A DNA stretch of 64,000 nt from Leisingera sp. M658. Lineage in GTDB: Bacteria; Pseudomonadota; Alphaproteobacteria; Rhodobacterales; Rhodobacteraceae. Shown here one piece after another: positions 11,046 through 42,034 of the stretch. Positions within the stretch are counted from its first letter, which is position 1. Each line of letters opens with the position of its first letter. The stretch lies in contig NZ_CP083546.1 of the NCBI RefSeq assembly GCF_025144145.1, positions 199,001-263,000 on the forward strand. The letters are read 5' to 3'. The notes under the pieces were generated by a model. The model was not told where the DNA came from and did no database searches. It worked only from the letters and a program-made list of their open reading frames with translations. The translations under genes and the position numbers were made by a program.

Positions 11046-11184
11046 CAGGCGGAGTTCAAAGGATCGGGAGGCTGCCTTCGGGACGGTGGCCATGAATTGA
11101 TCCGAACGCGCTGTCTCGTATGGGCAAGGTGCCGGGGCCCGGCGGCATCCTTGACCGGTGAGAACTCGAAAGGTGACATCTGAC

Positions 11185-26022: not shown

Positions 26023-26100
26023 GACGGCTTTGCCGTCTGGCGGGCGGCAGTTGGTTTTGCGCAGCAAAATCAATGAGAGCCCGCACCTCAGAGATGATAG

Positions 26101-26131
26101 AAAGGGCCGCTCGAAAGAGCGGCCCTTTTTC
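26101..26131 (+). terminator. Intrinsic terminator of the str operon
   Basis: AAAGGGCCGCTC, loop GAAA, GAGCGGCCC then TTTTT. It is the same stem as after tuf copy 1 with a different loop. Confidence 0.92.
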
Positions 26132-30741: not shown

Positions 30742-30854
30742 TCGGCCACCCTAGTAGGGCGTCTCCACAGGAGGCAACCGGGCGGGGGGCTTACACATAG
30801 CGGGTCCAAAGACAAAAACCTAAGGGCCTGCACGCTAAACGGAAGACAGAAAGC

Positions 30855-39901: not shown

Positions 39902-40090
39902 ATGGCAAAAACCATCGTGATCAAGCAGATCGGCTCGCCGATCCGCCGTCCTGCCAAACAGCGCGCAACCCTGATTGGCCTGGGCCTGAACAAGATGCAC
40001 AAAACCCGTGAGCTGGAGGATACCCCTTCGGTCCGCGGCATGGTCAACTCGATCTCGCATATGGTTCAGATCATCGAAGAGCGCGGCTAA
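39902..40090 (+). CDS. rpmD: 50S ribosomal protein L30 (uL30)
   Basis: 62 residues, complete. [20 protein letters not shown] and [20 protein letters not shown] are diagnostic. It is the last gene before the break in the spc operon; rplO, normally next, lies 1.5 kb away behind the two DUF1127/sRNA units. Confidence 0.98.
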
Positions 40091-40115: not shown

Positions 40116-40146
40116 AAAACGCCTCCGGGAAACCGGGGGCGTTTTT
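40116..40146 (+). terminator. Intrinsic terminator after rpmD
   Basis: AAACGCCTCCGG-GAAA-CCGGGGGCGTTTTT, a strong stem with T-run. It ends the rpmC-rpmD unit. Confidence 0.92.
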
Positions 40147-40236
40147 CGTTTTGGGACAGAGCAGGGCCGGGGCAGGGCGTTAACCTGCGGGAAAGGCCCC
40201 TTGCAATGCTTGCATAGCGGCTTGCCGGTTGTGTCA

Positions 40237-40268
40237 GTTGTTGGAATCGCGTGGCACTCCTATCTCGG
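40237..40268 (+). promoter_or_regulatory. Candidate RpoH-type promoter of DUF1127 unit 1
   Basis: GTTG, 18 bases, then CCTATCTCGG. The -10 fits the alphaproteobacterial heat-shock sigma consensus CYTATMTNNG at every position, and the -35 differs from CTTG by one base. It would give a 5' UTR of about 65 bases. Confidence 0.55.
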
Positions 40269-40336
40269 GGTCACAGCAAATGACCAAACACAGACCATCG
40301 GGAATATGCCCGGTATCAGAGATAAGGATTGTTAAG

Positions 40337-40549
40337 ATGGCACATGTTATCAGCACCGCACACGGCACCCACAGCCTCACCGCCCGCATCCGTTCCGCCG
40401 TGGAAGGCCTGGCCGATTCCTGGGTCAAAGCCCGCGAATTCCAGCGCACCTACAATGAACTGGACGCGTTGAGCGATCATGAGCTTTCGGACATCGGTGT
40501 GCGCCGCGACGATATCGCCGACCTGGCGCGCCAGCACGTCTACGGCTAA
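40337..40549 (+). CDS. DUF1127 mini-protein 1 (CcaF1-like)
   Basis: 70 residues from the ATG at 40337; the frame is open further upstream but the DUF1127 size is about 70. The C-terminal half (TYNELDALSDHELSDIGVRRD, then IADLARQHVYG) is the DUF1127 domain. In Rhodobacter sphaeroides a DUF1127 protein, CcaF1, binds RNA and is encoded just upstream of the CcsR stress RNAs. Here too a CU-rich hairpin RNA follows the stop directly. The protein is rich in His/Arg and has no signal peptide. The gene and its twin at 40815 are inserted between rpmD and rplO, each with its own promoter and terminator. Confidence 0.87.
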   Translation: MAHVISTAHGTHSLTARIRSAVEGLADSWVKAREFQRTYNELDALSDHELSDIGVRRDDIADLARQHVYG

Positions 40550-40562
40550 GAATTCCCGCCTT

Positions 40563-40637
40563 CCCGGACGCTTCTCTCCTCCTCCTTCGTGTCCGGGCCA
40601 AAGCGCTCCTGCCCTGTCCGGGCGGGAGCGTTTTCTT
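40563..40637 (+). ncRNA. CcsR/cuckoo-like small RNA 1 (3' UTR-derived)
   Basis: Thirteen bases after the DUF1127 stop, CCCGGAC (40563-40569) pairs with GTCCGGG (40591-40597), exposing a 21-base loop containing CTCCTCCTCC (40576-40585). A second hairpin (CGCTCCTGCCC / GGGCGGGAGCG) with TTTTCTTTT is the terminator. Two hairpins, the first with a CCUCCUCC-type anti-Shine-Dalgarno loop, define the CcsR (cuckoo) RNAs of Rhodobacteraceae, which are cut from DUF1127 mRNA 3' ends. Confidence 0.72.
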
Positions 40638-40709
40638 TTGGCAAGGCTTCAAGAGACCTCACGCGATCGTGCTATGCGGGCGCTGCATAGCTGCCAGACC
40701 AAAGCGTCC

Positions 40710-40741
40710 GTTGTTCCCGGTCCTGGCCGTCCTTATGTCCC
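40710..40741 (+). promoter_or_regulatory. Candidate promoter of DUF1127 unit 2
   Basis: GTTG, 18 bases, then CTTATGTCCC. The layout (GTTGTT and the same spacing) parallels the promoter of unit 1, though the -10 match to CYTATMTNNG is poorer. Confidence 0.4.
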
Positions 40742-40814
40742 GTTCACTTCAGACGAACAGATCAAGCAACGCGCCGGAGGCACGCTCCGGCAGCGCAGCG
40801 AAGGAACAAGAACA

Positions 40815-41027
40815 ATGGCATATTCAACTCTTTCCGCACCCTCCGCCGGGATCTCGGCCCGTTTCGCAGGCTTTGCCGCCGGGCTGCTGCAGAACTGGAA
40901 GCTGCGCCGCGATTACAAGGCAACCGTCAACGCCCTGCGCGCGATGTCCGCCCGCGACCTGGCTGACATCGGCCTGACCCGTTGCGCCATCCCCGGCGTC
41001 GCGCGCGAACACGTTTACGGCAAGTAA
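40815..41027 (+). CDS. DUF1127 mini-protein 2 (CcaF1-like)
   Basis: 70 residues, a paralogue of the 40337 protein. The C-terminal DUF1127 block is YKATVNALRAMSARDLADIG followed by LTRCAIPGVAREHVYGK; both proteins end in HVYG. The N-terminal half differs (SAGISARFAGFAAGLLQNWK) and is more hydrophobic. AAGGAACAAGAACA precedes the start. It is followed directly by the second CU-rich hairpin RNA. The repeat of the whole unit suggests an old tandem duplication with later divergence. Confidence 0.87.
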   Translation: MAYSTLSAPSAGISARFAGFAAGLLQNWKLRRDYKATVNALRAMSARDLADIGLTRCAIPGVAREHVYGK

Positions 41028-41033
41028 CCTCCC

Positions 41034-41110
41034 CGGCCGGCTCCGGATCCTCCTCCCTCTCCGAAGGACCGGCCCGAAAGCGCCCCTGCCATCCCGGCGG
41101 GGGCGTTTTT
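41034..41110 (+). ncRNA. CcsR/cuckoo-like small RNA 2 (3' UTR-derived)
   Basis: GGCCGG (41035-41040) plus TCC pairs with GGA plus CCGGCC (41066-41074), leaving a loop with an exact CCTCCTCCC (41049-41057), the motif that names the CcsR family. A GC-rich terminator hairpin (CGCCCC...GGGGGCG, TTTTTGTTT) follows. The architecture equals small RNA 1, while the stem sequence is different, which supports structure over chance. Confidence 0.75.
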
Positions 41111-41438
41111 GTTTGCCGGGGTGTTGCGTCGGCAACATACGCCTCGCCCACGCGGATTTAACTACGCTCTGAGAGGATCGCACCCGTTCATGATCACCCG
41201 CCGGGCCTGACACGCCCGGCACCTGGAACAGGGCTCCGGTCTGGCACCCGGAGCGGGCGATACGCGTATTCGCATGGGGGAAACCCCATCCCATCTCCAC
41301 CCCGGCGGCGCCGCCACCCTTTAACGGAGGGGCCTAGACGGACCGGACAGCACCAGAGGCAGCAAGAGAGGAACCGGCAGGGCAGGGGCCTTGGCGGCGG
41401 GACCTGCGTGCTCCGCATGTTTGGCGGGGCTGCGGGGC

Positions 41439-41467
41439 TTGATCCCGTCCCGCATCGGGTCTATAGG
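41439..41467 (+). promoter_or_regulatory. Predicted promoter of the rplO-secY-adk unit
   Basis: TTGATC, a 17-base spacer, then TATAGG, about 97 bases ahead of rplO. The region 41111-41438 upstream has several hairpins (for example ATGGGG-GAAA-CCCCAT near 41275) but no gene. Confidence 0.65.
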
Positions 41468-41563
41468 CACCCGGTGGCGTTCTGCGCCATGGAATCACCA
41501 ATCAAGAAACGCCGCGGTTGGCCCGTCTCGCTTCGGGGGCCACATCCGGCAAGGAGAAGCGAC

Positions 41564-42034
41564 ATGAAACTTCACGAACTCAGCGACAATCCTGGCGCAA
41601 CCAAAAAACGCATGCGCGTTGCCCGTGGCCCCGGCTCTGGCAAGGGTAAAATGGGCGGCCGTGGTATCAAAGGCCAGAAATCCCGTTCGGGTGTGTCGAT
41701 CAACGGTTACGAAGGCGGTCAGATGCCCTTGTACCAGCGTCTGCCCAAGCGCGGCTTCAACAAGCCGAACCGCAAGGCATACGCCGTTGTGAACCTGGGT
41801 CTGATCCAGAAATTCATCGACCTGGGCAAGCTGGACGCCGCGGATATCACCGAAGATTCGATGATCGCATCGGGTCTGGTACGCCGCAAGCTGGATGGCG
41901 TCCGTGTCCTGGCCAAAGGTGAAATCACCGCCAAAGCCACCATCACTGTGACCGGTGCATCGGCAGCTGCCGTTGACGCTGTTGCAAAAGCTGGCGGCGC
42001 TCTGACTGTGGCAACTGCAGCCGCCGCAGAGTAA
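41564..42034 (+). CDS. rplO: 50S ribosomal protein L15 (uL15)
   Basis: 156 residues from the ATG at 41564 ([20 protein letters not shown]), behind GGCAAGGAGAAGCGAC; the frame is open to 41408 without a ribosome-binding site. L15 is a late 50S assembly protein. [20 protein letters not shown] and [19 protein letters not shown] are diagnostic. It now starts its own unit, followed by secY after 111 bases. Confidence 0.97.

Follow-up and report, generated by a model that had tools for sequence, protein, structure and literature searches.

Tandem DUF1127 units with anti-Shine-Dalgarno hairpins and a putative LsrB/VtlR box between rpmD and rplO of Leisingera sp. M658

In the 64,000-nucleotide stretch of the Leisingera sp. 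M658 genome analyzed here (the window; contig NZ_CP083546.1, positions 199,001 to 263,000), two consecutive units, each made up of a short DUF1127 gene and a hairpin with an anti-Shine-Dalgarno (anti-SD) loop, lie between the ribosomal protein genes rpmD and rplO. The CcsR RNAs and CcaF1, which such units call to mind, are well-studied stress regulators of Rhodobacter, and their control is explained by RpoH. A first-pass annotation had read the pair as ccaF1-CcsR in its roseobacter form, set within the spc ribosomal operon. To which system, then, do the units belong, and what switches them on? They are of the known kind in which a DUF1127 gene is joined to an anti-SD hairpin (CIN1/CcsR), and a comparison of sequences indicates that they are probably DUF1127 transcripts activated by the regulator LsrB (VtlR) whose 3′ untranslated regions (UTRs) yield small anti-SD RNAs.

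Architecture and conservation of the two units

All the parts that had been ascribed to the units were present: in each, a promoter (GTTG separated by 18 nt from CCTATCT in unit 1 and from CTTATGT in unit 2), a DUF1127 gene of 70 amino acids (aa), a 3′ hairpin with a CUCCUCC loop, and a terminator, with one DUF1127 gene per hairpin. The two open reading frames (ORFs) scored 47.6 and 42.6 bits against the Pfam DUF1127 family (PF06568; cut-off, 23.3), no family was matched in an NCBIfam search, and the unit 2 protein was 40% identical to that of unit 1 across 57 aa. The C terminus HVYG, attributed to both proteins, is that of unit 1; the protein of unit 2 ends in HVYGK. The whole genome contains seven DUF1127 genes above the Pfam cut-off. 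A conserved 5′-UTR hairpin precedes the start of both genes in the window, and that of unit 2 shows, by eye, paired changes among 20 loci of the genus (GGAGG..CTCC, GGGAG..TCCC, and GGAAG..TTCC).

The loop of hairpin 1 holds CTCCTCCTCC and that of hairpin 2 CCTCCTCCC; a GC-rich hairpin and a T run come after each, and the 3′ regions, terminators included, folded with z scores of -5.4 (unit 1) and -4.8 (unit 2) relative to dinucleotide shuffles. The letters of the motif alone are not unusual in the window, where CTCCTCC occurs 4 times versus 9.2 expected and CTCCTCCYYC 3 times (two of them overlapping) versus 0.6 expected, a count reached in 5 of 100 shuffles; it is the arrangement and the conservation that both go beyond chance. 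The core TCTCCTCCTC was found in 20 of 20 hairpin-1 regions of the genus, and CTCCTCCC in 20 of 20 hairpin-2 regions (CCTCCTCCC in 19 of them), while the flanks and portions of the stems vary around these invariant loop cores. By a strict rule, the motif lay in an enclosed loop at 35 of the 40 sites of the genus, compared with a fraction of 0.37 of arm-shuffled versions.

Unit 1 was present in 20 of the 21 genomes of the genus, with no match in the 21st (90% complete, 410 contigs), and in all 20 loci the second DUF1127 gene starts 260 to 271 bases past the end of the first. Placement between rpmD and rplO was kept in the same 20 of 21 genomes. Of 80 named rplO loci, rpmD is in reach in 59; 35 of these 59 have a DUF1127 gene between the two ribosomal genes, and 5 of the other 21 have one at most 4 kb before rplO, which amounts to 53 genes in 40 loci. 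The anti-SD motif, however, follows 14 of these 53 genes within 150 nt, in only 11 of the 80 loci (L011, L012, L015, L019, L021, L032, L034, L037, L042, L048, and L067), all belonging to Leisingera, Phaeobacter, Zongyanglinia, or unclassified Rhodobacteraceae; it was absent within 150 nt of the pre-rplO DUF1127 genes found in Ruegeria, Shimia, and Celeribacter. At L048 (3412-3488) and L012 (3210-3288), the second, terminator-like hairpin also bears CTCCTCCC, so there are two anti-SD loops per gene.

A separate CcsR-type locus in the same genome

Identification of the units with ccaF1-CcsR did not withstand a comparison with the rest of the genome. A separate locus, L002, consists of a DUF1127 gene and four hairpins with CTCCTCCTCCC loops, and it matched the Rfam family CcsR1 (RF02791) at 45.0 and 44.5 bits (E values, 4e-9 and 6e-9), under the gathering score of 65.3 bits; the window units gave no match at an E value of 1 or lower. 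Since the L002 array matches CcsR1 and the units do not, the units are not the counterpart of ccaF1-CcsR, and the four-hairpin array fits better as its ortholog. CcsR1 matches were found in 246 of 295 genomes of the family, exceeding the cut-off in 9, and the own genome accounts for two matches. A further locus of this genome, L001, combines a DUF1127 gene with one CCTCCTCCC hairpin. Against ar14 (RF02344), the units scored 27.6 bits (E, 0.008) and 20.7 bits (E, 0.28), under the gathering score of 58.8.

The hairpins were further compared with those of ccaF1-like DUF1127 genes, which were sought in 120 genomes of the family and found in 95; 30 loci were fetched, 29 of them from other genera. 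Two to eight anti-SD sites lie within 330 nt in 29 of these 30 loci, and the loop of the window units recurs unchanged on differing, covarying stems in 28 other genera. The covariation of these downstream hairpins is strong (129 cells with changes on both sides, a figure that none of 500 shuffles reached) in a set chosen to fold. In hairpin 1 of the window units, one compensatory pair was found: four sequences carry A-U in place of G-C, a level reached by 1 of 500 shuffles. The pair may stand for two events because three of the four sequences come from close relatives of the window.

A covariance model, R1, was then built from 44 CcsR-like hairpins of other genera, with those of the own genome excluded. 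Of 161 cores, 152 folded with the motif in an enclosed loop, 140 passed by motif and length, and 60 were taken at random, 16 of which were dropped by eye for atypical loops; as the set was selected for the hairpin, its covariation leans towards the hairpin. In the own genome, the five best R1 matches were, except for the fourth, the L002 hairpins, and in the window the unit 1 hairpin was the best (17.2 bits; E, 0.0075). Across the 80 rplO loci, it gave eight matches with E values below 0.1 (one each in L011, L012, L015, L019, L021, and L042 and two in L048), all sitting 3′ of DUF1127 genes. Elsewhere in the window, R1 matched on both strands two hairpins with near-identical arms (26098-26131 and 2794-2827), which may be repeated terminators.

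The upstream box and its candidate regulator

The first-pass account of the promoters, correct in its GTTG and -10 elements, had overlooked a box, TGCR-N6-GCAT, upstream of both. The distance from this box to NTTG is exactly 21 nt in all 40 promoters (both units in 20 loci of the genus), and the center of the box is about 51 nt upstream of the -10 element in the window. Unit 1 has TGCA in 18 loci and TGCG in 2, and unit 2 has TGCG in 17 and TGCA in 3. Compared with the site of the LsrB/VtlR regulon (TGCA-N6-GCAT, T-N11-A), unit 1 of the window is exact and unit 2 keeps T-N11-A with one letter off. The box precedes NTTG by 21 to 22 nt at five of the own genome's seven DUF1127 promoters: it is exact at unit 1 and L002, has TGCG at unit 2 and L001, and has GCAA for GCAT at L004. 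The composite pattern of box and promoter occurs at 23 places in the genome, five of them at DUF1127 promoters, and at none when read backwards. Sixteen of the 18 other places overlap ORFs of at least 120 aa, which proves little because 3 of the 5 at DUF1127 promoters do so too.

The box is also found outside the genus. A strict pattern, [TA]TGC[AG]-N5-[TC]GCAT[AG]-N20-22-TTG, occurred upstream in 29 of the 30 ccaF1-like loci (mean of shuffles, 0.005 per 30; flanking windows, 1 of 472), with exact TGCA-N6-GCAT in 24 of the 29; the remaining locus, L193, whose match lies at a contig edge (475-630) so that the wrong place was read, was scored as a miss here as in the count of anti-SD sites. In each of the nine loci that exceed the CcsR1 cut-off, none of them from the genomes of those 30, a DUF1127 ORF lies just upstream; eight of the nine carry the strict box (two TGCA and six TGCG) in a search of 800 nt upstream that had no shuffle control of its own. 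Among the DUF1127 genes before rplO, the box accompanies 11 of the 14 with the anti-SD motif versus 9 of the 39 without it (Fisher P = 0.0008). A second near-palindrome, TTGTGC-N3-5-GCAGCA, overlaps the -35 element in 24 of the 29 box-bearing ccaF1-like loci (L179 to L208) and could be another site of the same regulator; it was not seen in the window units.

In Sinorhizobium meliloti, the anti-SD RNA NfeR1 is activated by LsrB via TGCA-N6-GCAT at -72 to -57, a site demonstrated by pull-down, gel shift, and mutation (PMC10746234). The same protein, known as VtlR in Agrobacterium, is there an activator of small RNAs and of a gene for a small protein (PMC7486931), and in Brucella it regulates three DUF1127 genes and the RNA AbcR2 (PMC12595884). 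The reverse complement of the VtlR motif CAATGCAGCCATGCA (PMC12595884) is one letter from TGCATGGCAGCATTG, which forms the tail of four of the eight boxes at the CcsR1 loci over the cut-off. An ortholog of the regulator is present: a LysR gene of one kind lies directly downstream of trxB in 14 of 30 loci of the class, and as a query one such protein gave a strong match (E ≤ 1e-82, 47 to 54% identity) in 41 of 41 family genomes searched and a second, weaker match in one of them. The ortholog of the own genome (G000:C1:1845367-1846230; 50% identity) was the only match in that genome at an E value of 1e-40 or lower. A literature search did not find CcsR together with LsrB or VtlR, nor DUF1127 together with rplO.

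From the shared box it would seem that the units are turned on by a redox-linked regulator known from plant-symbiotic bacteria. We infer that, upon an inducing signal, an LsrB/VtlR-type LysR regulator would bind TGCR-N6-GCAT and activate the promoter, so that each unit would be expressed as an independent transcript of a predicted 365 nt or so, if its start is assumed to lie about 7 nt past the -10 element. After the short DUF1127 coding region, the 3′ UTR, made up of one CUCCUCC-displaying hairpin and the terminator, could be freed by cutting or be active in place as a small RNA. Its loop would pair with the Shine-Dalgarno regions of particular mRNAs and lower their translation, like that of NfeR1 (CcsR is thought to act alike), and the DUF1127 protein of the same transcript may help to mature or dose such RNAs, like CcaF1. 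The units would be co-regulated paralogs of the ccaF1-CcsR-type locus of the own genome, lodged between the terminator of rpmD and the promoter of rplO.

Several observations weigh against this account. By itself, the box is no rarer in the window than chance allows (5 versus 4.7 expected), and the composite pattern was first drawn from promoters of the window and its genome, the loci of other genera being an independent test yet homologous. Unit 2, whose box reads TGCG in the window and in 17 of 20 relatives, thus lacks one half, TGCA, of the proven LsrB site; the same half is absent from six of the eight boxes at the CcsR1 loci over the cut-off, and of 30 CcsR1 loci fetched, 23 had the strict box and 7 did not. 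When the translations around trxB in the own genome were read, no LysR-like ORF of at least 120 aa was seen within 1.5 kb; the LysR-trxB gene order is described as well conserved in the class (PMC7486931). In the covariance-model comparison, the unit 1 hairpin, the best in the window, ranked seventh in the genome (E, 0.58), and that of unit 2 came fourth in the window at 12.6 bits, among chance matches; the unit 2 and L001 hairpins were outside the best 12 matches listed for the genome. Covariation, expected of both hairpins, amounted to the single pair in hairpin 1, and in hairpin 2 the pair counts were not above those of shuffles (309 of 500 as high) in a MAFFT alignment, which misplaces stems of unequal length; folded singly, each hairpin 2 sequence of the genus forms a hairpin. 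DUF1127 proteins elsewhere act via proteins such as PhoR, and their RNA binding is disputed (PMC12501420). Finally, LsrB may be a mere co-regulator or no regulator at all, because the ccaF1 promoter of Rhodobacter sphaeroides has been attributed to RpoHI/RpoHII (PMC10253847).

Alternative explanations and related systems

The last point leads to the strongest alternative, namely, that the units are stress units dependent on RpoHI/RpoHII, with the upstream palindrome either serving as a secondary modulator or bound by some other factor. The RpoHI/RpoHII promoter described for ccaF1-CcsR of R. sphaeroides (PMC10253847) speaks for it, as does the -10 element of unit 1, CCTATYT, which agrees with CTTGAA-N16-CCTATAT, the RpoH1 consensus of S. 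meliloti (quoted in PMC8844928). However, the same element also fits the RpoD consensus CTTGAC-N17-CTATAT (PMC8844928), so that the -10 elements of the units are compatible with either factor; the -35 element is GTTG in both units, 18 nt from CYTATNT; and the box is at least as well conserved in the genus alignment as the other promoter blocks. We consider this alternative rather unlikely; a contribution of RpoH, by analogy with ccaF1 of R. sphaeroides, may nevertheless exist alongside LsrB/VtlR.

It is less likely still that the protein is the product that matters and that the hairpin serves as a 3′ stabilizer or as part of a double terminator, its C-rich loop pairing with no mRNA. The 39 of 53 pre-rplO DUF1127 ORFs lacking the motif, including those of Ruegeria, Shimia, and Celeribacter, would accord with this, as would the protein-binding role of DUF1127 proteins (PMC12501420) and the frequency with which even arm-shuffled sequences enclose the motif in a loop. 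On the other hand, the loop core letters are invariant in 20 of 20 genomes of the genus while the stems change, the same loop sits on different, covarying stems in the ccaF1-like loci of 28 other genera, and CcsR and NfeR1, which bear it, act on mRNAs (PMC8307010 and PMC10746234).

That the ribosomal neighborhood is functional, the anti-SD RNAs titrating or being titrated by ribosomal protein mRNAs or free ribosomes, is very improbable even though the position is kept in the genus and a DUF1127 gene occupies it in 35 of 59 named loci, given the separate promoters and terminators of the units, an rpmD-rplO distance that ranges from 105 to 3,712 bases across the 59 loci, often with no DUF1127 gene in between, and loops that pair over just 4 to 7 bases with the 11 ribosomal genes examined in the window (counted with no control run), so that a special pairing with the neighboring genes was rejected.

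Nor is the pair embedded in the spc operon as part of one transcript, as had been proposed: the terminator after rpmD and the conserved promoter before rplO argue against cotranscription (Table 1). The rpmD terminator is strong by its fold; of the 20 genus loci, 12 have a terminator-like site before unit 1, and none was found in the other 8. The rplO promoter is the sole match to CTTGATCCC-N13-TCTATA in the window, and its CTTGATCC and TCTATA elements are aligned in all 14 genus loci that reach rplO. We infer that the site is an insertion-tolerant gap and does not tie the units to ribosome synthesis. Translations and gene order, not annotated records, gave the names rpmD, rplO, and trxB-linked LsrB/VtlR; the RplO of the window is 98% identical to that of Leisingera aquimarina. 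The rplO leader (41466-41563) is conserved in the 14 loci and self-complementary by eye (GGCCC..GGGGCC and GCTT..AAGC), and it is possibly a ribosomal protein leader outside Rfam, in which it had no match at the gathering score or at an E value of 1 or lower. Two known leaders were recognized by Rfam in the window, Rhodo-rpoB (11061-11153; 84.5 bits) and the L2-Alphaproteobacteria leader (30773-30852; 41.1 bits).

Table 1. Features between rpmD and rplO, in window coordinates
Feature	Position	Strand	Basis
rpmD, final gene of the upstream spc half	39902..40090	+	ORF; name read from translation
Intrinsic terminator 3′ of rpmD	40116..40147	+	Hairpin and T run, fold
Unit 1 LsrB/VtlR-type box, TGCA-N6-GCAT	40202..40215	+	Pattern search, genus loci
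Unit 1 promoter: GTTG 40237-40240, CTATCT 40260-40265	40237..40265	+	Alignment of 20 genus loci
Unit 1 small 5′-UTR hairpin, CGGG/CCCG	40299..40312	+	Conserved block in 20-locus alignment, pairing by eye
Unit 1 DUF1127 protein, 70 aa	40337..40549	+	ORF; PF06568, 47.6 bits
Unit 1 anti-SD hairpin, CTCTCCTCCTCC in loop	40563..40597	+	Fold, alignment, covariance model
Unit 1 terminator hairpin and T run	40600..40640	+	Fold
Unit 2 LsrB/VtlR-type box, TGCG-N6-GCAT, one letter from TGCA	40675..40688	+	Pattern search
Unit 2 promoter: GTTG 40710-40713, CTTATGT 40732-40738	40710..40738	+	Sequence, genus alignment
Unit 2 5′-UTR hairpin, GCCGGAG/CTCCGGC	40773..40791	+	Alignment of 20 loci
Unit 2 DUF1127 protein, 70 aa	40815..41027	+	ORF; PF06568, 42.6 bits
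Unit 2 anti-SD hairpin, CCTCCTCCC in loop	41035..41074	+	Fold; weak covariance-model score
Unit 2 terminator hairpin and T run	41075..41112	+	Fold
rplO promoter, CTTGATCCC-N13-TCTATA	41438..41465	+	Sole such match in window; genus alignment
rplO, opening gene of the downstream spc half	41564..42034	+	Name read from translation

Among known systems, ccaF1-CcsR1-4 of R. sphaeroides resembles the units in that one transcript carries a short DUF1127 gene and, after it, hairpins with CCUCCUCCC loops. A loop of the CCUCCUCCC type directly 3′ of a DUF1127 gene, as in CcsR (RF02791), is found in the window units as well, with its core in 20 of 20 loci, and the same kind of box lies upstream of eight of the nine CcsR1 loci over the cut-off. 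The differences are that ccaF1 has four hairpins and the window units one per gene, that the window has two tandem gene-hairpin units, each with its own promoter and terminator, and that these have no CcsR1 match at an E value of 1 or lower and coexist with a CcsR-type array elsewhere in the genome. NfeR1/alpha-r14 (RF02344) shares with the units ultraconserved anti-SD loops on variable stems and a core promoter preceded by an LsrB box, TGCA-N6-GCAT (PMC10746234), whereas it is a trans-acting small RNA with three anti-SD hairpins and its own promoter, and the scores of the units against its family (27.6 and 20.7 bits) fall below the gathering score of 58.8. The VtlR/LsrB-controlled DUF1127 genes of Rhizobiales are similar in that DUF1127 is under a LysR regulator (PMC12595884); they differ in that the excerpt of that paper mentions no anti-SD hairpin for them and in that the window boxes keep TGCR-N6-GCAT and lack the GCATTG tail. 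The CIN1 locus, of the cuckoo RNA family, is a further close system.

We are somewhat inclined to regard LsrB/VtlR control of anti-SD RNAs as an ancestral alphaproteobacterial circuit and not as peculiar to rhizobia, a circuit in which the DUF1127 and anti-SD set of Rhodobacteraceae, operons of the ccaF1-CcsR kind included, would form one regulon that has grown in Leisingera and its kin by single-hairpin units between the halves of spc. If true, the shared LsrB-type box would join the loci of the ccaF1-CcsR kind and the rpmD-rplO units to the rhizobial LsrB-NfeR1 circuit and would also tie them to the VtlR-controlled DUF1127 genes of Rhizobiales. With one hairpin each, the window units would offer a simpler system than the four-hairpin array for the effect of a DUF1127 protein on its own RNA.

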